45,484 bases of DNA from a virus: positions 1 to 45,484 of IMG/VR virus record IMGVR_UViG_3300027985_000652; one strand, given 5' to 3'. Positions 626 to 43,275 of the stretch are shown one piece after another. The translations under genes and the position numbers were made by a program. The stretch's first letter is position 1. Each line of letters begins with the position of its first letter. The notes under the pieces are model-generated. The model had not been told where the DNA came from. It ran no database searches and saw only the letters and a list, made by a program, of their open reading frames with translations.

Positions 626-1902
626 TTTTCGACCCTAATCCCCTTTTTTTCGAAATACTCCGGCTTTATAAAAGCTACAAAACCCCTGAAAACCTAGTAA
701 CTATATGCAACGAGGGGAGTTCTCGTAGCTCGAAAACTTTCGATTTCTTCCATTTTCTCGTTATGTTCTGCGATCACAACCGCGGTGCGGAACTTGAATT
801 TTACGTACTGCGCGATCTTTTAACGGATTGCCGGGATTATACCTATAAGGAATTTAAAAAGTGCCTAAAGATAATAGGCGTATGGGACGAAGAGGCGGGG
901 GTAACTTCGCCAAAACCCTATTACAATCTATTCGGAAACCATGTATTTTTCAGGGGACTGGACGACGATAAAGAAGCCCCGCCCTCAGATGGTATATTTG
1001 TGAACGAAGCTCTGGAAATAGATCGGGAAAGCAAAATAAAAGGCTGGCGTATGCGCTGCCGCTTATTCATGGTGTATGACTGGAACCCGAAATATACTGA
1101 GCATTGGTGTTTTAATATGAAAGGGAGGCCGAATACTTTCTTCACTCACTCCACTTACAAGAACAATAAGCATTTGGCTGTATCCATAGCTAACGAGATA
1201 GAGAGCTATTGCCCGTGGCATTTTGATGATCTCGATTTACCGGAGAACGAACGAAGGCCGCACCCTTACAATTTGCAGAACGGCACAGCCGATATATACC
1301 AATGGCTGGTATATGGGGCAGGGATACGTACCGCCCCCGAAGGGTTGATATTCCAGAATGTGAACTATATCGATGAATGGCCTATGGACGTGGCTCACGT
1401 TTACGGCCTAGATTTCGGCTTCACGGTCGACCCGTCCGCGCTAACCAAAGTCGGGGAAACGGCAACGGATATTTATTTAGAACTACTGCTTTATGAGCCT
1501 ACCGCTACGCCGGATATGCTGAACAGCTACGCCGAGGCTATCGGATTGGATAAATCGTTACCATGTACCGCCGATAGCGCGGATAAATACACAGGTGAGA
1601 ATCGCGGCACTGTTGAGATGGTGGAGGCTTTGAAATCTTTAGGCTGGAATATTACTAAAGTCTCGAAAACCCGCTCAATAATATTCTGGATCAACGAAAT
1701 GAAAAAGAAGCGTATAAATATAATACGTAACAGTTTAGTTCATAAAGCACGAAAAGAGCAGGAAAACTACCGTTTTAAAATGGTGAACGGAATAGCCATA
1801 AATCAACCTGAGGATAAATTCAATCATTTTTTCGATTCAAGTAGGTACGCTTATATGAGCCTGCATAGCGGGGCGATAGGAGTTAATCCCGCTTGGTTTT
1901 AA
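622..1902 (+). CDS. terL: Terminase large subunit (ATPase-nuclease)
   Basis: Motor protein that pumps DNA into the prohead and cuts it. A P-loop-like Walker A is seen at residues 32-39 (GSSRSSKT, Lys38). A Walker B-like segment ends in the catalytic Glu129 (IFVNEA). The C-terminal RNase H-like nuclease has acidic residues at Asp264 (YGLDFGF), Asp318 (TADSADK) and Asp405 (FFDSSRY). The length of 426 residues and the motif spacing fit the Terminase_3/Terminase_3C type. The Walker A loop has Ser where Gly is usual (RSSKT instead of RSGKT), a variation tolerated in terminases. Followed 36 bases later by the portal gene. Confidence 0.93.
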   Translation: MIFDPNPLFFEILRLYKSYKTPENLVTICNEGSSRSSKTFDFFHFLVMFCDHNRGAELEFYVLRDLLTDCRDYTYKEFKKCLKIIGVWDEEAGVTSPKPYYNLFGNHVFFRGLDDDKEAPPSDGIFVNEALEIDRESKIKGWRMRCRLFMVYDWNPKYTEHWCFNMKGRPNTFFTHSTYKNNKHLAVSIANEIESYCPWHFDDLDLPENERRPHPYNLQNGTADIYQWLVYGAGIRTAPEGLIFQNVNYIDEWPMDVAHVYGLDFGFTVDPSALTKVGETATDIYLELLLYEPTATPDMLNSYAEAIGLDKSLPCTADSADKYTGENRGTVEMVEALKSLGWNITKVSKTRSIIFWINEMKKKRINIIRNSLVHKARKEQENYRFKMVNGIAINQPEDKFNHFFDSSRYAYMSLHSGAIGVNPAWF

Positions 1903-1938
1903 TAATAAATATCGTAAATTGCGCGAAACGTTGATAAA

Positions 1939-3570
1939 ATGACCTTTAAGAATATAGAAGATATAACCGCCCTTTTAAAACAGGCTACCCCGGATTGGGT
2001 AGATAAAGCGAGGGAGTACCACAGAGAACTAAAGGCTTTAGTATACGGTGAGGATTACACCGATTTGCTTTTACGTATCGAACATATCGAGAGCGATAAA
2101 AGAGCAAAAGCCCGAAAGAACTATTCCCGGTCGATTCAAGATTTAAACGAAAGGCTGTTACGCCCGATCGATAACGTTTATTCGGCTACGGGGGGAACGA
2201 AAAACTATCAGTCTATCCCGGAAGCGCAGCGGAAAAATGTATTAAAAGCGGTTACACATATCCGTGATAACAAGTCTCTGGAAAAATTCTTGCAAACATT
2301 CTGGGCGAAAGATTTGTATATCGTTGATCCGGCCGGAGTTCTGTTTTTAGAATACGCCGAAGGGGTACCCCCTTACCCCGTTTATAAATCTATCGACTGT
2401 ATCCGCAATTATTATGCTGAGGGGCAGAATCTAGAGTGGATAGTATTCGAGCCTAAGCGCGTGAAGATAGCGGGCGAGGATAAAGAGCTTATCCGTTTTG
2501 TTGACGATCGAACGGATTATACTTTTATAAAAGATGGCGATACGTTTCGCCTTGTTGAGGAAAAAACTTTTCAGCATCCTTTTGGCCGCGTTCCGGGTTT
2601 AGTGAATAGCGATATTACCCGCCTTGGAAAACCTAAACGTTTCAGTTTACTCGATAATGTACTGGGGATAGAGCGCGAATTCATGCGCGATCAATCAGTA
2701 CTCACCATTTATAAGTTCCTAAATGGCTTCGCCACGCCCATACGCCCGGTAATGGTGTGCCCTTCTTGCCGGGGAATAGGTAAACGAGGTACTGATGACT
2801 GTCCAGATTGCGACGGCAAAGGCCACGTAATGCGGAAAGACGTTACCGACGAAGTATTACTGCCTATCTCTTTAGATAAAGAGAAAGGGTACAGCCTGCC
2901 TCCGGGTATATTCAGTTATATGACCCCTCCCTTAGATATTTGGAACCAATACACCGAAGAGGAAAAAAGACTGGAGAGCAGGGCTTCGGACACATTATGG
3001 GGCACTCATAAAGAAAAATTCGAAAACGAGCGCACGGCCTTTGAGACCTTCGTAGATGCGCAGCCAGTTATGAGTAAACTTTCGGAGATTTCCGAAGTAG
3101 CGGAGTTCATGGAATGGCAGTTTACCGAATGGCTTGTCAACTATTTTGTACCTACAAAGAAAAAAGAAGAGCCAGCCACAGTTATAAGTTACGGCAAAAT
3201 GTTCATTATCGAGCCTGCCGAAGCTATTATGGAAAAATACCGGGTAAATAAAGAAAAAGGCGTATCGGTTGTGATTCTTGACCGCCAAATGCTCGAATAT
3301 ATTACTTCTAAATATAAAAATAATCCAAAGGCTCTCAGAAATGAACTTATTAAAAAGGAGCTGGATTATTACGTCCATTATACTATCGATGAGGTGAATT
3401 CCATCTTCGGCGCGAGGGAGGCACAAAAGAAAATGTTATTCACCGATTGGTGGGAGACTTTGAACAGTCAGGATTTAGACGGGCAGACTGTCGAGACTTT
3501 GAAAACCCGCCGCGATACGTGGATAGATTCTCAATTAGTACTAATCAACAATATAAATACAAATGAGTAA
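1939..3570 (+). CDS. Portal protein with DnaJ-like zinc knuckle
   Basis: Forms the dodecameric ring at the capsid vertex through which DNA passes. Identified from its position between large terminase and scaffold/capsid, its length of 543 residues, and portal-like content rich in helices and charged residues. An unusual feature is a compact cysteine cluster at Cys274, Cys277, Cys288 and Cys291 in the form CPSCRGIG...CPDCDGKG, which matches the CxxCxGxG repeats of the DnaJ zinc-binding domain and would bind one Zn ion. It lies mid-protein, after a segment resembling the portal wing/stem entry. The last 8 bases overlap the next gene. The portal call is by context and general pattern; the zinc site is directly visible. 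Confidence 0.8.
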   Translation: MTFKNIEDITALLKQATPDWVDKAREYHRELKALVYGEDYTDLLLRIEHIESDKRAKARKNYSRSIQDLNERLLRPIDNVYSATGGTKNYQSIPEAQRKNVLKAVTHIRDNKSLEKFLQTFWAKDLYIVDPAGVLFLEYAEGVPPYPVYKSIDCIRNYYAEGQNLEWIVFEPKRVKIAGEDKELIRFVDDRTDYTFIKDGDTFRLVEEKTFQHPFGRVPGLVNSDITRLGKPKRFSLLDNVLGIEREFMRDQSVLTIYKFLNGFATPIRPVMVCPSCRGIGKRGTDDCPDCDGKGHVMRKDVTDEVLLPISLDKEKGYSLPPGIFSYMTPPLDIWNQYTEEEKRLESRASDTLWGTHKEKFENERTAFETFVDAQPVMSKLSEISEVAEFMEWQFTEWLVNYFVPTKKKEEPATVISYGKMFIIEPAEAIMEKYRVNKEKGVSVVILDRQMLEYITSKYKNNPKALRNELIKKELDYYVHYTIDEVNSIFGAREAQKKMLFTDWWETLNSQDLDGQTVETLKTRRDTWIDSQLVLINNINTNE

Positions 3571-36305: not shown

Positions 36306-36888
36306 CTCGATACTTGTTTGCGCTATTTTCAGCGCGTGTAACCCTGACTTATGCCCTGAGCCTGTTAATTGCGCCCTTACTTATAAGGGTATTGATACTG
36401 TTAACGGAGTGCCTTATTTAGTAGGTTCTGATAAAAAATACTACGTAATAAAAGATACTACGCTTTGGCGTATTACTTTTAAAGATACGGTAATCCTTAA
36501 ATGGGTTCTTAAAGATTCATCGATACTAAAACCCCCGAGAAAAACGCTTCTGAGTATCGAGGCCAAGGGTTCAGTCTGCCAAAACGTATGGCCTGAATTA
36601 GAGCTTTGGGTAAACGGGTCAAAAGTTAGAAATTTAACCGTGGATTACGCCTCTTTTAATACGTACCTATTAAATTTAGATTTCTACGATTACGAAATAA
36701 AGTCTTTAGAAATCACTTTTATAAATGATAAATATTCCCCTGAAACAGATGAGGATAGGAACGTATGGGTTAACGGCGTTTATTTAAACAGCACACGCCA
36801 AAAAATCAAAGAACTAACCGGGGGCGTGTATTATGGGGGCGAGATAATACTCATGGCCGGGAACGGCTCTATAGTAGTACAGTTATGA
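36286..36888 (+). CDS. Lipoprotein with CBM60-like domain
   Basis: A 200-residue protein. The N-terminal signal has a lipobox (FSAC, Cys18), so the mature protein should be lipid-anchored in the host envelope. The C-terminal domain (about residues 90-175) has VWPELELWVNG..., then TFINDKYSPETDEDRNVWV, with Asn147, Asp148, Asp155, Asp157, Arg158 and Asn159. This ND.Y.....DRN pattern is that of Ca-dependent xylan-binding modules (CBM60/CBM36-like). A sugar-binding surface lipoprotein amid replication genes suggests a cargo gene, for example for superinfection exclusion or surface change. Role inferred. It overlaps both neighbours slightly. Confidence 0.65.
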   Translation: MARNLFSSILVCAIFSACNPDLCPEPVNCALTYKGIDTVNGVPYLVGSDKKYYVIKDTTLWRITFKDTVILKWVLKDSSILKPPRKTLLSIEAKGSVCQNVWPELELWVNGSKVRNLTVDYASFNTYLLNLDFYDYEIKSLEITFINDKYSPETDEDRNVWVNGVYLNSTRQKIKELTGGVYYGGEIILMAGNGSIVVQL

Positions 36889-37157
36889 CCGTGTATTCAG
36901 AAAAATATCTCGAAAGGAAACTCAGGCAGGAGGTCGAAAAACACGGAGGCTTAGCTATTAAATTAGTCGCCGTACATTTTATAGGGCTGCCAGATAGGCT
37001 TTGCTTGTTACCCGGCGGGCGTTTGTTTTTTGCCGAGATAAAAACTACGGGCGAAAAGCCAACACGATTACAATTACATGTACATTGTAAATTAAGAGTT
37101 TTAGGTTTTAACGTCCATATTATAGACACCCTTGAAAAATGCTTATCATTAATATAG
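36885..37157 (+). CDS. VRR-NUC domain nuclease
   Basis: A 90-residue minimal VRR-NUC protein. GLPDRL with Asp37, then FFAEIK with Glu51 and Lys53, then TTGEKPTRLQ make the complete PD-(D/E)XK core. Stand-alone VRR-NUC proteins occur in many phages and are thought to act on branched DNA or replication intermediates. Its start overlaps the lipoprotein stop by 4 bases and its end overlaps a membrane micro-ORF by 19 bases. Confidence 0.85.
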   Translation: MTVYSEKYLERKLRQEVEKHGGLAIKLVAVHFIGLPDRLCLLPGGRLFFAEIKTTGEKPTRLQLHVHCKLRVLGFNVHIIDTLEKCLSLI

Positions 37158-37219
37158 CCGTATCCGTGTTTCTTTTATTTATTCTGATAGTTTTTATAGA
37201 CACTTGGAAAAAATTGTAA
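37139..37219 (+). CDS. 26-residue membrane microprotein
   Basis: MLIINIAVSVFLLFILIVFI followed by DTWKKL: one membrane segment with a basic end. It overlaps the nuclease gene by 19 bases and its stop overlaps the operator of the next promoter. It resembles in size and plan the microproteins at 38067, 41822 and 44254. Translation is not proven. Confidence 0.4.
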   Translation: MLIINIAVSVFLLFILIVFIDTWKKL

Positions 37220-37234
37220 CTTTTTGTTACTTTG
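37216..37234 (+). promoter_or_regulatory. Promoter with operator-like repeat, copy 2
   Basis: GTAAC-TTTTT-GTTAC (37216-37230) followed by TTTG and then CCCGTAAAAG. The layout copies the sites at 28805 and 43481, but one base is missing between GTTAC and TTTG, so the -7 box is a weaker match. It stands just before the cassette region; it may drive the YopX and duplicated HTH genes. Confidence 0.6.
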
Positions 37235-37359
37235 TCCCGTAAAAGATAAGACGATGAAACACAAATATAAATCAAAGCTTGCTTATAACGGTGGTAATAT
37301 GGCATCGAAAGCCAACCTGTACGCAACACACTTAATTAATGGCACAACTGCATAAATTA

Positions 37360-37404
37360 GCACTAACGCCTGTATGTTTTATGATGCGGTGTTAGGCTTA
37401 GTAC
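37360..37404 (+). repeat. attC-like junction before YopX gene 1
   Basis: ACTAACGCC (37362-37370) can pair with GCGGTGTTAG (37386-37395), with one mismatch, around a short loop. It ends in GTTAGGC, which is the only junction that fits the classical integron core GTTRRRY. The sequence upstream (37240-37359) has no gene; the preceding unit seems to be a remnant. Confidence 0.5.
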
Positions 37405-37824
37405 GGTAAATAATGAGACAACTTAAATTCAGAGCTTGGGATAAAAGCGACAATAAAATAATAAACGATATTTATCCTGCAACTAACGGAGATGTAGCAG
37501 GAGATTACAATGGTAGGTTTTGCCTTAGACTACCTGCTGAACGTGTAGTGATAGATCAATACATAGGCATTAATGATAAAAATGGAGTAGAAATATATGA
37601 GGGTGATTATTTAGTTGACCGCTACCCGATTGACGAAGAAGATTTAAGTAAAGGTTACAATGAAAGCTTATTACCTGTTGCTTGGTGTGATAAACAGCTT
37701 TGTTGGTGTGTAGATGCTTCATTTGCAAAAGATGGCAGTTACTTAACTTCTTTGGTGGAATATTTCGGGGAGTTTTTAGAAGTAAAAGGTAATATACACG
37801 AACGAACGTAGTATTAAGCCTAAC
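37391..37824 (+). repeat. Cassette 1: private inverted repeats around YopX gene 1
   Basis: GTTAGGCTTAGTAC (37391-37404) and GTATTAAGCCTAAC (37811-37824) are complementary at 13 of 14 positions and enclose the gene at 37413. The right copy overlaps the gene's stop codon. Directly after it the duplicated HTH gene begins (37828), so the rest of an attC is missing. Confidence 0.7.
37413..37811 (+). CDS. YopX-family protein 1
   Basis: A 132-residue protein with the YopX signature: opening LKFRAWDKSDNKI, then YIGINDKNGVEIYEGDYL, and a closing EFLEVKGNIHE. The family is common in phages and mobile elements; its function is unknown. The gene is the sole content of a unit bounded by inverted repeats. 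A related protein sits at 39354. Confidence 0.85.
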   Translation: MRQLKFRAWDKSDNKIINDIYPATNGDVAGDYNGRFCLRLPAERVVIDQYIGINDKNGVEIYEGDYLVDRYPIDEEDLSKGYNESLLPVAWCDKQLCWCVDASFAKDGSYLTSLVEYFGEFLEVKGNIHERT

Positions 37825-37827
37825 GCT

Positions 37828-38070
37828 ATGCAAACCAAAGACTTAGAAAGCAGAATTGCAAAATATTGTAAGGATAACCCATACGAAGCGATGCGTACCG
37901 CTGAACTTATTTACAAAAAATTGCAAATGCTACCAGTACGTGAATTTGCAGCAATTAGCACACTGTCAGAAAAAACAGTTTACAATATGGTTTCCGATCT
38001 TGAGAATGCAAAAATTGAGGTCGCCGTATTAGGCGGCATTAAATTCATCCCTAAAATTTTAAACCCATGA
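37828..38070 (+). CDS. Small HTH protein, copy 1
   Basis: An 80-residue protein. The helical N-terminal half (ESRIAKYCKDNPYEAMRTAEL) is followed by a helix-turn-helix-like segment (VREFAAISTLSEKTVYNMVS, residues 37-56) and a beta-like end (VAVLGGIKFIPKIL). It differs from copy 2 (41583) at only eight residues, five of them between 36 and 49 in the HTH. Likely a DNA-binding regulator. The ATG lies four bases after the end repeat of the YopX cassette, so its original leader has been replaced. Confidence 0.65.
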   Translation: MQTKDLESRIAKYCKDNPYEAMRTAELIYKKLQMLPVREFAAISTLSEKTVYNMVSDLENAKIEVAVLGGIKFIPKILNP

Positions 38071-38143
38071 ACGAAGATTTTAACCCTAAAGGCTGCCGGA
38101 ATCTATTTATTCTCTTATTCGTAATACTTCTAATATTGGTGAT
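37828..38143 (+). repeat. 316-bp direct repeat, left copy
   Basis: Matches 41583-41898 over 316 bases without gaps. The first about 100 and last about 135 bases are nearly identical; the middle differs at many positions. It covers a small HTH gene and the start of a membrane microprotein. The two copies flank 3439 bases of cassette array. Recombination between them would release a 3755-base circle. Confidence 0.95.
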
Positions 38144-38168
38144 ATACACGTATATAAAACGGAAGTAA
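38067..38168 (+). CDS. 33-residue membrane microprotein, copy 1
   Basis: MNEDFNPKGCRN followed by a hydrophobic stretch (LFILLFVILLILVIYTYI) and KRK. The ATG overlaps the HTH stop (ATGA). Copy 2 (41822) shares the first 26 residues and then ends differently where the direct repeat stops. Coupled translation and duplication of both genes together support a real gene pair. Confidence 0.5.
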   Translation: MNEDFNPKGCRNLFILLFVILLILVIYTYIKRK

Positions 38169-38257
38169 AAAGGGGGGAGAAAAAAGAAAAGAAAAAGACT
38201 TAACCCGCGAATGTTATTTACGAGAGCAGAACTTAAAGCACTTGTTTATAACGTATG

Positions 38258-39128
38258 GTTGTATGAAACGTAGCGACCAAGTTGCAGAAAAGTTGATTAA
38301 ATGAACAGAACTAAAAAATTAAAAATAGGGAGGGCTTTTTATGAAATATATGGGAAGTAAAAACAGAATTGCAAAGCACATATTGCCAATAATGCTTGAA
38401 TACAAAACACCCGAAATGTATTGGGTTGAACCTTTTGTTGGTGGTGCAAATATGATTGATAAGGTAGAAGGAAGGCGAATAGGTGCAGACTTGAACCCAT
38501 TTTTAATAGACGCTTTAATTGCAATAAGAGACTGCATAACCGACTTACCTAGAAATAACAAGGAGTTTACTGAAGCTGATTACAAAAAACTTAGAGCGAA
38601 CAATGACTATAAATACAAAGGCTATGCAGGGTTTGCATTTAGTTACAGTGGAAAATGGCTTGGAGGTTGGTGTAGGGATGGGAAAGGCAAGCGTGACTAT
38701 GTACAGGAGGCTTACAGGAATGCCTTAAACCAAAGCCCTAAACTAAAAGGCATTAGATTTGTTTGTGATAACTACCAAGATTTAGAAATACCACCAAACA
38801 GCTTGATTTATTGCGACCCACCATACGAAGGGACTACAAAATACAAAGACGACTTTAGTCACGGAGCTTTTTGGCAATGGTGTAGAAATAAAGCCAAGGA
38901 AGGACATAAGGTGTTTGTGAGTGAGTATAACGCACCGAAAGACTTTGAGTGTTTATGGCAAAAAGAAATAGTGAGTAGCTTAACAAAAGAGACTGGAAGT
39001 AAGACTGGAGTAGAGAAGCTTTTTACCCAAATGGTTTTGTAAAAACCAAAGTGCGTGGGCTTTTTAATTTTTGACCAAACAACACCAATGCTGATTAAAT
39101 GAACGAACCTAGCTATGTTTTATACAAC
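38258..39128 (+). repeat. Cassette 2: private inverted repeats around the Dam-like methylase
   Basis: GTTGTATGAAACGTAGC (38258-38274) and GCTATGTTTTATACAAC (39112-39128) are complementary at 15 of 17 positions. Inside, a GACCAA...TTGATTAAATGAAC motif is found near both ends (38275 and 39073). A weaker gene-free pair, GTTATTTACGAG (38213) and CTTGTTTATAAC (38241), lies directly upstream. Confidence 0.7.
38341..39042 (+). CDS. DNA adenine methylase, D12 class (Dam-like)
   Basis: A 233-residue protein. The opening MKYMGSKNRIAKHILP and EPFVGGANM form the AdoMet-binding motif I, and YCDPPYEG (Asp159-Tyr162) is the catalytic DPPY motif. No matching restriction gene is seen, so it is likely a solitary methylase used for protection of phage DNA from host restriction. 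The gene fills an inverted-repeat-bounded unit. Its 3' end shares a short tail with the other two methylase genes, with the stop codon in a small hairpin (GGTTTTG-TAA-AAACC). Confidence 0.9.
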   Translation: MKYMGSKNRIAKHILPIMLEYKTPEMYWVEPFVGGANMIDKVEGRRIGADLNPFLIDALIAIRDCITDLPRNNKEFTEADYKKLRANNDYKYKGYAGFAFSYSGKWLGGWCRDGKGKRDYVQEAYRNALNQSPKLKGIRFVCDNYQDLEIPPNSLIYCDPPYEGTTKYKDDFSHGAFWQWCRNKAKEGHKVFVSEYNAPKDFECLWQKEIVSSLTKETGSKTGVEKLFTQMVL

Positions 39129-39130
39129 GT

Positions 39131-39217
39131 GTTAGCAACTGTGCCTTATTTTTGGACAGCGAACGACACAACCAAAACATAGCAAAGGTTTATAGATTGA
39201 AAGGCATTGTTGCTAAC
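39131..39217 (+). repeat. Gene-free cassette-like unit
   Basis: GTTAGCAACTGTGCC (39131-39145) and GGCATTGTTGCTAAC (39203-39217) are complementary at 13 of 15 positions and enclose 57 bases without a reading frame. It begins two bases after the AAC that ends cassette 2, so the two units abut (AAC-GT-GTT). Confidence 0.6.
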
Positions 39218-39303
39218 GGCTACTTATATGAGTAGTAGCCGATTTGAAACATTAACTTTGAAATAATTACAAATGTTAAACAGAGTGATAAGCCCTAATA
39301 ATT

Positions 39304-39343
39304 GCACTACAACGGCTATTACTTATATAAATTGTTGTAGTGC
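39304..39343 (+). repeat. attC-like hairpin before YopX gene 2
   Basis: GCACTACAAC (39304-39313) and GTTGTAGTGC (39334-39343) form a perfect 10-bp inverted repeat with a 20-base loop. The same left arm recurs after the gene at 39721. Confidence 0.75.
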
Positions 39344-39730
39344 GTTTTGAGCGATGGCAAATCATAGACTTAAATTTAGAGCTTGGAATAAAGAAAGCAA
39401 TAAAATGATGCTGTGGGCGGACATACAGCGATTTAAAAACTTAAACAAACTTATTAGCCTTGATCATGTAATTGTACAGCAGTTTACTGGATTGTGCGAT
39501 AAACACGGAATTGAAATATATGAAGGTGATATACTTAGCGACTGGACTGAAACGGATGAAGGTTTAGTTCAAAGCAAGATGCAAGTGTTTTGGGAAGCTA
39601 AAATGGGGGCTTGGTTGCTTGATAATAGCTATGGGCAAAATAAAAGTAGCGGCGATTTGCTTTCGGATGAACTTGCAGGCTTTGCTTATGAAATTACTGG
39701 CAATGTGTGCGTAGGCTAATGCACTACAAC
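39334..39730 (+). repeat. Cassette 3: private inverted repeats around YopX gene 2
   Basis: GTTGTAGTGC (39334-39343) and GCACTACAAC (39721-39730), complementary at all ten positions, enclose the gene at 39354. The right copy starts directly after the stop codon. Confidence 0.75.
39354..39719 (+). CDS. YopX-family protein 2
   Basis: A 121-residue protein of the same family as the gene at 37413: opening LKFRAWNKESNKMM, then QQFTGLCDKHGIEIYEGDIL, and a closing YEITGNVC. Only the family signature positions are shared with copy 1, so they are old relatives and not a recent duplication. Unknown function. It is the sole gene of its unit. Confidence 0.85.
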   Translation: MANHRLKFRAWNKESNKMMLWADIQRFKNLNKLISLDHVIVQQFTGLCDKHGIEIYEGDILSDWTETDEGLVQSKMQVFWEAKMGAWLLDNSYGQNKSSGDLLSDELAGFAYEITGNVCVG

Positions 39731-39777
39731 GTAATGAATATGTGGAGGCTGAGGTACGAAGCTTACATATATTTGGT

Positions 39778-40732
39778 GTTAGTTGCTGTACGGGCAAATT
39801 AGTACCAAAGTTGATTAAATAGACGAATGTAAAATTTTTAAAAGCGAAGCGATGGCAAAAATAAGTTTAGATAAATACTACACACCTTCTGATTTAGCAG
39901 AATACTGTGTAAAGAAAACAAAAGAAGTAATTGGAGCTAAAAACATTACAGAATGGCTTGAACCAAGTGCAGGGGCAGGTGTGTTTTTACCTTACTTAGA
40001 CAATAACTACCTTGCATTTGATATTGAACCAGAAGCGGAAAATATTGAACAAAAGAACTACCTTGAATTAGATTTGCCGTACTTTAAAGGTAGGTGTGTG
40101 ATTGGAAACCCCCCGTTTGGAACAAGGAATACATTAAGTGTAAAGTTTTATAAAAACAGCTTAAAATATGGTGACTATATAGCTTTTATATTACCTGCAA
40201 GCCAATACAACAACAACCAACAATTGTATGAGTTTGATATGGTTTATAGTGAGCTTTTGCCTATTGTTGAGTATTGTGGCGTAAAACTACAATGCGTATT
40301 TAATATTTATAAGAGACCAAATGGAGGGTTAAATACAAGCCCAATAAACTATAAGCTAAAAGATGTAACAGTGACGGAGTACCGAAGGAATGGAACATAC
40401 CCTAAACCAAAAGATTATGACTTTGGTATGTGTACTTGGGGGAATGTAGGTAAGAAGGTTGATTATGTAGGGCAATTTGCACAAGAAAATTACATTAAAG
40501 TAAACAACGTAACACACAAGGATGAGGTGATTAAGTTAATGACTGAAACAGATTGGAAAAATTTATACCCATGTATTAGTACACCGAAAATACAAACTTG
40601 GAAAATTTACAAATACTTACGGGAGCAAATACCCCAATTGGTTTGAAAAACCAAAAGTGCGGTGGGGCTTTTGAAAATTGACAAGTTAGCACTACACTTG
40701 ATTAAATGAACGAAAGTAGTATTGCAACTAAC
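39778..40732 (+). repeat. Cassette 4: private inverted repeats around the NPPF methylase
   Basis: GTTAGTTGC (39778-39786) and GCAACTAAC (40724-40732) are perfectly complementary; extended to 14 bases the match is 12 of 14 (39778-39791 and 40719-40732). TTGATTAAAT motifs lie near both ends. Confidence 0.75.
39852..40646 (+). CDS. N6-adenine DNA methyltransferase (NPPF type)
   Basis: A 264-residue protein with YYTPSDLAEY near the start, AdoMet motif I EPSAGAGVFL (residues 37-46) and catalytic motif NPPFG (Asn86-Phe89). It is shorter than typical type I or II methylases and has no obvious target-recognition domain, so the target is unclear. Presumed role: protective DNA modification. The 3' end carries the shared hairpin tail with the stop inside (TTGGTTTGAAAAACCAA). 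Confidence 0.85.
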   Translation: MAKISLDKYYTPSDLAEYCVKKTKEVIGAKNITEWLEPSAGAGVFLPYLDNNYLAFDIEPEAENIEQKNYLELDLPYFKGRCVIGNPPFGTRNTLSVKFYKNSLKYGDYIAFILPASQYNNNQQLYEFDMVYSELLPIVEYCGVKLQCVFNIYKRPNGGLNTSPINYKLKDVTVTEYRRNGTYPKPKDYDFGMCTWGNVGKKVDYVGQFAQENYIKVNNVTHKDEVIKLMTETDWKNLYPCISTPKIQTWKIYKYLREQIPQLV

Positions 40733-40737
40733 GAATA

Positions 40738-41511
40738 GTAATATGGCAAGTGCCGAAATAACGCACTGCCGATGATGCGAGAGCGAATGTAATAATTAAA
40801 TATTTTTTTTGAAGGGATGGAAAAATACAACGTAATATATGCAGACCCAGCGTGGGAGCAAAAAGCAGGCAGACCACTAAGCGGTGGATATAAAAAAGAA
40901 AATGGAGTGCAGGTATTTAACCCTAAAAGCGACAAATCTGCTGATTTACCGTACAATACGATGAAATATGAAGATATACTTAAATTACCTGTAAATGATT
41001 TAGCTGCAGATAATTGCCATTTATACTTATGGGTAACTAACAAGTATTTAATGAAAGTGGAACAAGTTATAAGTGCTTGGGGCTTTAAATACTCAACTAC
41101 TTTAGTTTGGGCAAAAAAACCTATTGGGAGTGGAATGGGTGGCACATTTAAAGTATCAACTGAATTTTTGATATTTGCCACTAAAGGGAAAGTTGGAGCT
41201 ATTACCAAAGAGAAGGTAAACGGAACTTGGTTTGAGCAGAAAAGGCAATATGTAAACGGATACCCTTGCCATTCTAAAAAGCCAGACTTCTTTTATGAAC
41301 TTATAGAAAAAGTTTCTGACGGCAACAAGATTGAGTTATTCGCAAGAAATAAAAGAGAAGGTTGGGATGTATGGGGCAATGAAGTTGACTGCAGTATAAA
41401 CCTTAATGGTTTTGAAAAAACCAAAGCGGGCGGGCAAAAAAATATTTAATTATGGTCAAACTTGCAGAAACGACAATACGAAGCTACACACTAAGGCATT
41501 TGCTATATTAC
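40738..41511 (+). repeat. Cassette 5: private inverted repeats around the MT-A70 methylase
   Basis: GTAATATGGCAAGTGCC (40738-40754) and GGCATTTGCTATATTAC (41495-41511) are complementary at 15 of 17 positions. Here the core is GTAAT/ATTAC rather than GTTAG/CTAAC. A second copy of the left end, GTAATATGGCA, is present at 37294 in the gene-free stretch before the first YopX gene. Confidence 0.7.
40817..41449 (+). CDS. MT-A70 family adenine methyltransferase
   Basis: A 210-residue protein. IYADPAWEQ (Asp10-Trp13) stands where MT-A70 enzymes have DPPW, with Ala replacing the second Pro. Then come YNTMKYEDILKLPV, LYLWVTNKYLM and KPDFFYELIEKVS, then ELFARNKREGWDVWGNEV, all typical of phage MT-A70 proteins. 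Presumed N6-adenine DNA methylation. The last 15 residues are read through the tail that in the other two methylase genes lies after the stop, so the C-terminus has been extended. Confidence 0.87.
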   Translation: MEKYNVIYADPAWEQKAGRPLSGGYKKENGVQVFNPKSDKSADLPYNTMKYEDILKLPVNDLAADNCHLYLWVTNKYLMKVEQVISAWGFKYSTTLVWAKKPIGSGMGGTFKVSTEFLIFATKGKVGAITKEKVNGTWFEQKRQYVNGYPCHSKKPDFFYELIEKVSDGNKIELFARNKREGWDVWGNEVDCSINLNGFEKTKAGGQKNI

Positions 41512-41513
41512 GT

Positions 41514-41542
41514 GTTAGCTTGTCGTTTTAATGCAAGCTAAC
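41514..41542 (+). repeat. Minimal gene-free unit
   Basis: GTTAGCTTG (41514-41522) and CAAGCTAAC (41534-41542), a perfect 9-bp inverted repeat with an 11-base loop, two bases after the end of cassette 5. It is followed by TACTTATATA, which is also found after the unit ending at 39217. Confidence 0.65.
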
Positions 41543-41582
41543 TACTTATATATACACCCCCATAAATAAAAATCACAACATC

Positions 41583-41825
41583 ATGCAAGCCAGAGACTTA
41601 GAAAGCAGAATTGCAAAATATTGTAAGGATAACCCATACGAAGCGATGCGTACCGCTGAACTTATTTACAAAAAATTGCAAATGTTAACGGTACGTGAGT
41701 TTGCCAAACAGAGCAATTTATCCGAGCGGACTGTTTACAATATGGTATCTGATCCTGAGAATGCAAAAATTGAGGTCGCCGTATTAGGCGGCATTAAATT
41801 CATCCCTAAAATTTTAAACCCATGA
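41583..41825 (+). CDS. Small HTH protein, copy 2
   Basis: An 80-residue near-copy of the protein at 37828. The changes are T3A, K4R, P36T, A42K, I43Q, T45N, K49R and L58P; five fall in or next to the HTH. It could therefore bind a different site. The leader before this copy (A-rich, CATAAATAAAAATCACAACATC in part) looks like a normal phage leader, and the downstream gene order (microprotein, helicase) is intact, so this may be the ancestral location. Confidence 0.65.
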   Translation: MQARDLESRIAKYCKDNPYEAMRTAELIYKKLQMLTVREFAKQSNLSERTVYNMVSDPENAKIEVAVLGGIKFIPKILNP

Positions 41826-41898
41826 ACGAAGATTTTAACCCTAAAGGCTGCCGGAATCTATTTATTCTCTTATTCGTAATACTTCTAATATTGGTGAT
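41583..41898 (+). repeat. 316-bp direct repeat, right copy
   Basis: Partner of 37828-38143. Similarity ends inside the microprotein gene after GGTGAT: the left copy continues ATACACG, the right copy CCTATG, which leads into the helicase start. Confidence 0.95.
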
Positions 41899-41908
41899 CC
41901 TATGTTAA
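41822..41908 (+). CDS. 28-residue membrane microprotein, copy 2
   Basis: The first 26 residues equal the microprotein at 38067, then LC and stop. It overlaps the HTH gene by 4 bases and the helicase start (41902) by 7. The basic end of copy 1 is absent here. Confidence 0.45.
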   Translation: MNEDFNPKGCRNLFILLFVILLILVILC

Positions 41909-43275
41909 AAACCCTCCACCACTATCAGCTTACAGCTATCGACCATATCCTGAATAACCCTAAATGCGGTCTTTTTCTCGATATGGGTCTTGGTAAAACG
42001 GTATCCACTCTTACAGCTGTTCGAAAGCTTATATTCGAAGAAATAGAAATATCCCGGGTGCTGGTTATTGCCCCCAAGAGGGTTGCTGAGAGTGTATGGG
42101 GTGCCGAGATAGAAAACTGGCCGCACCTTAAAGGCCTCAGGGCGGTAAAAATAACGGGTACTGAGATGCAACGAAAAGCCGCTTTAAAAGAAAAAGGGCA
42201 TATCTACCTGATAAGCCGTGATAACGTGGCTTGGCTCTGCGGGCAATACGGAGGCTCCACACTCCCTTTCGATATGCTGGTTATTGATGAAAGCAGCAGT
42301 TTTAAAAACCCGAAATCCCTCCGATTTAAAGCCCTCAAAGCGGTATCCCCTTCTTTCGACCGGGTTATACTTCTTACAGGTACCCCCGCCCCGAATAGCC
42401 TTATCGATCTGTGGAGCCAGATATACCTACTTGACCGGGGCGAACGCCTCGGGCGATTTATAACACAATATCGCAAAGACTTTTTCACGCCGGGGCAGTC
42501 GAACGGCCATATCGTATACAATTACAAGCTTCAAAAAGGCGGGGAAAAAGCCATACATGAAAAGATAGGCGATATATGTATGAGCATGAAAACAGAAGAC
42601 TATTTAGAACTGCCGGAGAGGATAGATAACTTTATTAAAGTAAAATTCCCTGATGAGGTACAGAGCCTGTACGACGACTTCGAACGCGAAAAAGTCCTAC
42701 AATTATTCGAAGATAACGAGGTATCGGCGATAAATGCCGCTGCCCTCTCCAATAAGTTGCTACAGTTTGCTAACGGTGCCGTATACGATGAGAATAAATA
42801 TTATCACGAAGTACATAGCCTGAAACTAGACGCTTTAGAAGATTTAATCGAAGAGGCCAACGGCCAGCCCGTTTTGATTGCTTGGACGTATCGGCACGAC
42901 CGGGATAGGATACTCCGAAAATTAAAAAGTTATAAACCCCGAGAATTGAAAACTGATAAAGATATAAAGGATTGGAACTCCGGGAAAATACAGGTACTCA
43001 CCATGCACCCGGCAAGCGGGGGGCATGGCCTGAACCTACAGCACGGGGGTAATACTGTTGTATGGTTCGGCCAGACATGGAGCCTTGAACTGTACCAACA
43101 ATTAAATAAAAGGCTCCATAGGCAAGGGCAGACAAAGCCCGTAATAGTACACCATCTTATCGGTAGTAAAACTATAGATGAAGATGTTATGAAGGCCCTG
43201 AAAAGGAAGGAAGCCGGACAAAGCGGCCTTATGGAAGCGATAAAAGCACGAATAAATAAATATCAAAATGACTAA
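41902..43275 (+). CDS. SNF2-type DNA helicase/translocase
   Basis: A 457-residue superfamily 2 ATPase. Walker A DMGLGKT (27-33), Walker B DESS (129-132), motif III LLTGTP, and motif VI QLNKRLHRQGQ near residue 400 are all present. Phage proteins of this size and type are common near polymerase and primase genes and probably remodel or translocate on dsDNA. The DESS variant replaces the usual DEAH. It overlaps the microprotein at its start and the next gene by 8 bases. Confidence 0.92.
   Translation: MLKTLHHYQLTAIDHILNNPKCGLFLDMGLGKTVSTLTAVRKLIFEEIEISRVLVIAPKRVAESVWGAEIENWPHLKGLRAVKITGTEMQRKAALKEKGHIYLISRDNVAWLCGQYGGSTLPFDMLVIDESSSFKNPKSLRFKALKAVSPSFDRVILLTGTPAPNSLIDLWSQIYLLDRGERLGRFITQYRKDFFTPGQSNGHIVYNYKLQKGGEKAIHEKIGDICMSMKTEDYLELPERIDNFIKVKFPDEVQSLYDDFEREKVLQLFEDNEVSAINAAALSNKLLQFANGAVYDENKYYHEVHSLKLDALEDLIEEANGQPVLIAWTYRHDRDRILRKLKSYKPRELKTDKDIKDWNSGKIQVLTMHPASGGHGLNLQHGGNTVVWFGQTWSLELYQQLNKRLHRQGQTKPVIVHHLIGSKTIDEDVMKALKRKEAGQSGLMEAIKARINKYQND

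Follow-up and report, generated by a model that had tools for sequence, protein, structure and literature searches.

Clusters of attC sites lacking integron integrases (CALIN) that carry methylase genes have already been described in phages, among them the Polaribacter phage P12002L (Qi et al. 2023, PMC9892861). The sites of P12002L were scored there as attC by HattCI or IntegronFinder, and its attC2 is active with IntI1 in the laboratory; the top strand gave no recombinants (PMC9892861). Integron integrases are held to owe the recombination of single-stranded attC to the acquisition of the I2 helix (PMC7790495). Here, we analysed an IMG/VR virus record of 45,484 bases (IMGVR_UViG_3300027985_000652, hereafter the window; the record is possibly incomplete), in which a first-pass annotation had noticed five genes between private inverted repeats and had proposed an integron-like cassette array moved in trans. 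The region is an integron-type cassette array without integrase, i.e. a CALIN, inserted between genes that are adjacent in related phages.

The array resembles P12002L and other phage CALINs in its one-gene cassettes between attC sites, its methylase cargo and its lack of an integrase, and the sites of both are found by the same model. They also have a D12 methylase in common: the best nucleotide match of the window gene among named phages is the P12002L methylase (76% in the aligned pieces), which lies there between attC sites. A phage array of methylase cassettes is not in itself novel. PMC9892861 does not have the mirror orientation as a rule (although divergent attC directions were noted in P12002L), the leader and trailer elements, the insertion hot spot or the Bacteroidia recombinase described below. 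Three things look new: phage sites arranged mirror-wise, a recombinase resembling XerA and IntI beside arrays in the IntI-poor Bacteroidia, and, in cassettes whose genes are unrelated, a shared leader and a trailer hairpin that covaries. The literature searched, whose coverage is incomplete, contained no description of an integron integrase from Bacteroidia or of phage cassettes in mirror orientation. With chromosomal IntI integrons (TIGR02249) the phage array shares AAC/GTT cores, hairpin attC, complementary arms within the cassette and varying cassette neighbours. Unlike them, it has no IntI, its R boxes are mostly not GTTRRRY, its spacers and gene orientation are reversed, and its stem has a conserved wobble or mismatch.

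Layout of the array and pairing of unit ends

The array consists of the following features, in order (HTH, helix-turn-helix; MTase, methylase).

37287-37393, + strand: degenerate left-end attC region (AACGGTGGTAATATGG ... GCGGTGTTAGGC), 79% identical over 76 nt to the interior of an attC of L094; weak model match at 37357-37401 (E about 1)
37391-37824, + strand: unit 1, arms GTTAGGCTTAGTAC / GTATTAAGCCTAAC, YopX gene 37413-37811
37828-38127, + strand: HTH-gene block, copy A, immediately behind unit 1, gene 37828-38070; 92% identical to copy B over 300 nt
38258-39128, + strand: unit 2, arms GTTGTATGAAACGTAGC / GCTATGTTTTATACAAC, D12 adenine methylase 38341-39042; the unit lacks its hairpin (AACGTATG|GTTG)
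39131-39217, + strand: gene-less unit of 87 bp, arms GTTAGCAAC / GTTGCTAAC
39215-39336, + strand: attC site with AAC at 39215-39217, stems, and GTT at 39334-39336; 5' spacer 6 nt, 3' spacer 3 nt
39334-39730, + strand: unit 4, arms GTTGTAGTGC / GCACTACAAC, YopX gene 39354-39719
39720-39788, + strand: attC site, GAGGTACGAA loop in common with a P12002L attC; model R1, 40.0 bits, E = 1.1e-6
39778-40732, + strand: unit 5, arms GTTAGTTGC / GCAACTAAC, MTase gene 39852-40646
40789-41511, + strand: unit 6, weak arms GTAAT / ATTAC, MT-A70 methylase 40817-41449
41514-41542, + strand: terminal hairpin GTTAGCTTG-TCGTTTTAATG-CAAGCTAAC, conserved gene-less array end; L091 has this hairpin too, with the same HTH gene behind it
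41583-41882, + strand: HTH-gene block, copy B, gene 41583-41825; 92% identical to copy A

The five genes reported in the first-pass annotation (two YopX and three different methylases: D12, a weakly typed MTase and MT-A70) do lie between private end repeats, with arms at 37391/37824, 38258/39128, 39334/39730, 39778/40732 and 40789/41511, and two gene-less units (39131-39217 and 41514-41542) come in addition. Arms and coordinates agree with that annotation in four units; the MT-A70 unit (GTAAT/ATTAC), credited with 15/17, is much weaker at its anchored ends. Own-arm matches over 12 nt are 11, 11, 11, 10 and 8 in the five gene units, the last being that of MT-A70.

Whether such repeats exceed those of shuffled sequence has a different answer for the window and for its relatives. 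In the window, the best 14-nt inverted repeat between 130-nt flanks was compared, unit by unit, with 200 dinucleotide-shuffled flanks: the D12 unit is clearly above chance (0 of 200), whereas the other four gene units, taken singly, are hardly so (reached by 11, 12, 12 and 100 of 200 shuffles). As a set, the own pairing of the window arms is the single best of the 5,040 pairings of the seven units, but these arms had been picked for matching. An unbiased test used 42 cassettes of related phages bounded by attC hits from a model blind to pairing. Complementarity of a cassette's start with its own end was 5.40/9, against 3.15/9 with other cassettes, and none of 20,000 permutations was as good. 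The pattern of own-end pairing is real, although the window repeats alone would not prove it. The paired arms lie 0.15-1.8 kb apart.

The attC sites and their covariance model

A pattern scan with a repeated 17-mer retrieved 30 viral stretches, many carrying long cassette rows. The covariance model of attC, trained on 27 short sites, has 14 pairs, 10 of which changed on both sides; in its inner stem this holds for 9 of 10 pairs. The model placed 77 attC sites in 31 related phage loci, and a reversed-sequence control gave 7 sites versus 33 real ones. The usual stem comprises 9 bp, one or two mismatches and about 4 bp. A CALIN is defined by at least two attC with AAC/GTT cores and paired stems, and the window has two (39215-39336 and 39720-39788). 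The single-strand fold of 39209-39345 has z = -4.7; window junctions other than 39720-39788 are degenerate or long-looped. The mobile cassettes of units 4 and 5 would span 39218-39730 and 39731-40732. The strand favoured by folding is the model strand in phages and chromosomes alike, weakly so for the window site (z = -1.3) and strongly in genome G447 (z = -6.1). An Rfam search of the array and six related loci returned no family.

Most ends indeed break the GTTRRRY rule, as had been remarked, but this is a trait of the whole site class: the R boxes GTTACC, GTTATA, GTTGTA and GTTAGC are common, GTT is constant, and the GTT/AAC core alone is conserved. The earlier statement that no integrase is present also stands, since no protein of the 45 kb record, which may be incomplete, matches PF00589. 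Thus, the window record lacks the integrase in the same replicon that characterises a complete integron.

Cassette boundaries in related phages

The first-pass annotation had suggested looking for the same genes with different neighbours and the same unit ends, and this is what related phages contain. One cassette, which carries the second methylase of the window together with the upstream hairpin (968 nt, 87.5%), is common to L272 and L273, and the two loci diverge exactly at its downstream AAC. The MT-A70 cassette behaves in the same way in L275/L278 and L276/L277, so that gain or loss occurs precisely at the recombination core in these three pairs. L092 and L108 share a hairpin and the sequence downstream of it, the match beginning at AAC. 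Among the matches examined, those that include a gene do not extend to the hairpin downstream of it. Since the upstream hairpin is shared with the gene and the downstream one is not, the hairpin belongs to the gene behind it. In the more diverged pairs L094/L102 and L083/L094 the match begins at GTT, so hairpins can be replaced too. Together with the attC-type sites with compensated stems and the own-end pairing, these AAC breaks between different neighbours support the idea of an integron-like array moved in trans. The outcomes that the first-pass annotation had named as refuting it, a fixed gene order without precise gain or loss and repeats no commoner than in shuffled sequence, were both examined, and neither overturned it.

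The second methylase of the window also occurs (87% at the amino acid level) without cassette ends in L268, L269 and L271, packed among phage genes.

Mirror orientation of phage cassettes

In IntI-linked arrays of the phylum, the site reads along the gene as AAC, 2-3 nt, stem with extra base, stem, 6 nt and GTT (20 of 30 sites). Phage attC read along the gene as AAC, 5-6 nt, stem, stem, 3 nt and GTT, which is the reverse. The same model gives 127 genes on the strand of the adjacent site and 8 on the opposite strand in phages, against 18 and 152, i.e. the canonical way, in Bacteroidia genomes. The hairpin of phage cassettes is thus 5' of the gene, and not at its 3' end as in an ordinary cassette. 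In site and gene direction, the cassettes of phages mirror those of ordinary integrons and, because of the reversal (127:8 versus 18:152), are not host cassettes taken up unchanged. Phage and chromosome cassettes would then form separate pools, which bears on how cassettes get made.

Leader and trailer of methylase cassettes

The methylase cassettes have a common leader (about 64 nt, up to 94% identical) and trailer (about 92 nt, about 80%) around unrelated genes.

38293-38307, + strand: D2 motif TTGATTAAATGAACG in the D12 leader; further copies at 39091-39105, 39811-39825 and 40698-40712
39025-39060, + strand: trailer hairpin NNNNTTTTGAAAANNNN then GNGCGNGGGC; further copies at 40631-40666 and 41400-41435

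The motif TTGATTAAATGAACG occurs in both leader and trailer in methylase cassettes of many phages (L081-L110) and is near chance in bacterial genomes. The trailer hairpin covaries (across 20 cassettes, both partners have changed in 5 of its 6 pairs), corresponds to no Rfam family and runs over the ends of unrelated genes, in reading frames that differ between them. Leader and trailer may be expression signals, and would double as homology arms for gene swaps within a cassette. The motif TTGATTAAATGAACGAA was considered as a recombination core and rejected: plain cassettes, for instance L272, lack it, so exchange does not depend on it. A search of genomes from about 85,000 species of bacteria and archaea found it in 34 stretches, most of the contexts inspected being unrelated, so it seems to be mainly a phage-cassette element.

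Apparent integrons of Bacteroidia and a candidate recombinase

The host of the window phage is likely a member of the Bacteroidia, because the nearest relative of the helicase of the record is that of Croceibacter phage P2559Y (62%). Integrases of the IntI type, called with TIGR02249 at its curated cut-off of 265 bits, were found in 105 of the 395 genomes sampled from the phylum; in the class Bacteroidia the figure was 1 of 395, and no attC was seen beside that single one. We thus rejected IntI supplied by Bacteroidia hosts. Yet the phage-type attC class is present in 42 of the 395 Bacteroidia genomes.

A weak IntI search of 14 attC-bearing Bacteroidia genomes revealed recombinases of 375-425 aa in most of them. 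This candidate resembles XerA but has an additional region of about 100 aa at its N terminus; its best matches are XerA-type proteins (NF040815; PDB 4a8e and 5hxy) and IntI4 (2a3v). Points of difference are the additional region, the position next to attC arrays and the lack of the IntI-specific patch. It does not qualify as IntI by TIGR02249: the first member scores 206 bits, and none of the 14 genomes exceeds 265 bits. In the profile alignment about 42 columns are absent between KDR and HxxRH, where IntI has its specific patch, which we take to hold the I2 helix.

In seven genomes (G447, G478, G545, G597, G626, G142 and G574) one contig holds both the candidate and array sites, and this is also true of four genomes outside the training set, at distances of 0.3 kb (G420), 1.2 kb (G662), 1.8 kb (G605) and 6 kb (G673). 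In all eleven loci, the array is 3' of the recombinase and on the same relative strand. The order integrase, GTT core, gene, attC was read directly in L371 (G447), L376 (G478) and L386 (G545), and in G447 and G478 the outer attC arm matches the core ahead of the gene. These three loci are apparent complete Bacteroidia integrons, with an XerA/IntI-like gene and the array behind it. A Sunxiuqinia genome whose array contig (L117) is identical to a viral contig (L084) also encodes the candidate family. Judging from the shared site class, the enzyme moving the phage cassettes is probably a so far unrecognised XerA/IntI-like recombinase of the host.

A phage-encoded enzyme was dropped as a candidate. 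L091 carries a generic phage-type tyrosine recombinase inside its cassette array (1389-2318, reverse strand), with 51.7 bits to TIGR02249, and most array phages have none. Separately, several contigs of G096 (L367-L370) terminate in attC copies that are almost the same, a hint that a large repetitive array interrupted the assembly.

Proposed movement of cassettes and competing explanations

We consider it likely that the window carries an array of a Bacteroidia-native integron system, resident in an integrase-less phage and moved by a host recombinase. The sites, arm pairing, boundaries, orientation and adjacency are observed in the sequence, and from them we infer how the system would work. 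Each cassette would have the structure AAC^G - hairpin - GTTxxxx - leader - gene - trailer - xxxxAAC. Once it is excised and circularised, the two arms would meet around the hairpin and make a complete attC. A host tyrosine recombinase, most likely the XerA/IntI-like enzyme adjoining the same attC class in Bacteroidia chromosomes, would act on the folded strand and cut the AAC/GTT core, inserting or removing cassettes. Gene direction is opposite to site polarity, leaving the hairpin 5' of the gene and making the coding strand the foldable one. Such traffic would let phages gather anti-restriction methylases, along with other small genes, and swap them. We lean, by a small margin of belief, towards the broader proposal that Bacteroidia have their own integron lineage, with an XerA-like recombinase lacking the IntI patch, and that phages keep a separate, methylase-rich, mirror-image pool circulating without a phage-encoded integrase.

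The array may instead be an ordinary CALIN, supplied with cassettes and activity by conventional IntI integrons of other bacteria or mobile elements, with nothing special about Bacteroidia. Phage CALINs with methylases are published, P12002L attC2 works with IntI1 (PMC9892861), and IntI genes are present in IMG/VR contigs. However, neither this attC class nor the D2 motif occurs in any of the 80 viral contigs with the best IntI matches, IntI exceeds the cut-off in a single Bacteroidia genome of the 395, and cassettes that mirror the chromosomal ones are not simply borrowed from hosts; we regard this explanation as unlikely. More doubtful still is that the hairpins are conserved intergenic structures (terminators or RNA elements) and that genes are swapped by homologous recombination through the common leader, trailer and hairpin. 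This would fit the leader and trailer shared by unrelated genes, the covarying trailer hairpin, gene homology that often ends at the ends of the open reading frame, and the second methylase without a cassette in L268. It leaves unexplained the own-arm pairing across 0.15-1.8 kb, the exact AAC breaks in cassettes devoid of leader and trailer (L272/L273) and the chromosomal order integrase, GTT, gene, attC. The own inverted ends of each unit could also recall transposon-like units that a transposase mobilises by private terminal inverted repeats, but the ends of neighbouring units differ beyond GTT/AAC, the proteins searched include no transposase, no target duplications were seen, and the window has no tyrosine recombinase; we give this explanation almost no credence.

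Several points weigh against a Bacteroidia-native system moved by the host. Some member of the recombinase family is found in 194 of the 395 Bacteroidia genomes, such that its adjacency to arrays is informative and its mere presence hardly so. The training sites were selected by a stem-scoring scan, which builds part of the covariation into the model and makes that argument partly circular. The host of the window phage is deduced only through the P2559Y helicase match. The exact AAC breaks come from other phages, and no near relative of this one with a different array was seen. Finally, the window has two strong attC sites and three degenerate junctions, because of which this copy of the array may be partly dead.

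Cassette arrays emerge from this analysis as a recurrent habit of Bacteroidia phages and not as a rare accident. Their cargo is likely to be anti-restriction methylases, and there is a concrete candidate enzyme. A patch-less recombinase beside folded attC arrays would, if true, represent a second origin of single-strand attC recombination or an intermediate.

Insertion spot and array end

The phage genes of the record include portal, tape-measure, DNA polymerase and primase-helicase. Two further genes flank the insert.

36885-37157, + strand: VRR-NUC-type endonuclease gene, left neighbour (phrog_93 endonuclease, 8e-22)
41902-43275, + strand: SNF2-type helicase gene, right neighbour (PF00176, 2e-24)

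The insert is 4.7 kb long, between the VRR-NUC end (37157) and the SNF2 start (41902), has a lower G+C content and encodes, in order, YopX, HTH, the D12 methylase, YopX, the second methylase, the MT-A70 methylase and the second HTH copy. In six related phages (L001, L002, L004, L005, L010 and L021) the site is empty, with 22 bp between the VRR-NUC and SNF2 matches. Other relatives have the junction filled with other genes, including D12 methylases, HNH genes and, by open-frame reading, apparent cytosine methylases. Only one (L015) of the 60 best SNF2 relatives has attC sites, and we rejected the array as an ancestral trait of this phage lineage. The empty junctions, the other fillings and the rarity of attC make this a general insertion spot, of which the cassette array is one of several fillings. 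Even without attC sites, this hot spot (36885-43275; relatives L001-L080) collects apparent C5, N6 and D12 methylases together with HNH genes.

The presence in L091 of the same HTH gene and terminal hairpin suggests a fixed array end, and the hairpin (41514-41542) is a possible attI-like entry point. A pattern scan for the HTH gene found no homologue; one is present in L091. The 300-nt HTH-gene block is duplicated in the window (92%; 37828-38127 and 41583-41882), and both copies directly follow a cassette segment.

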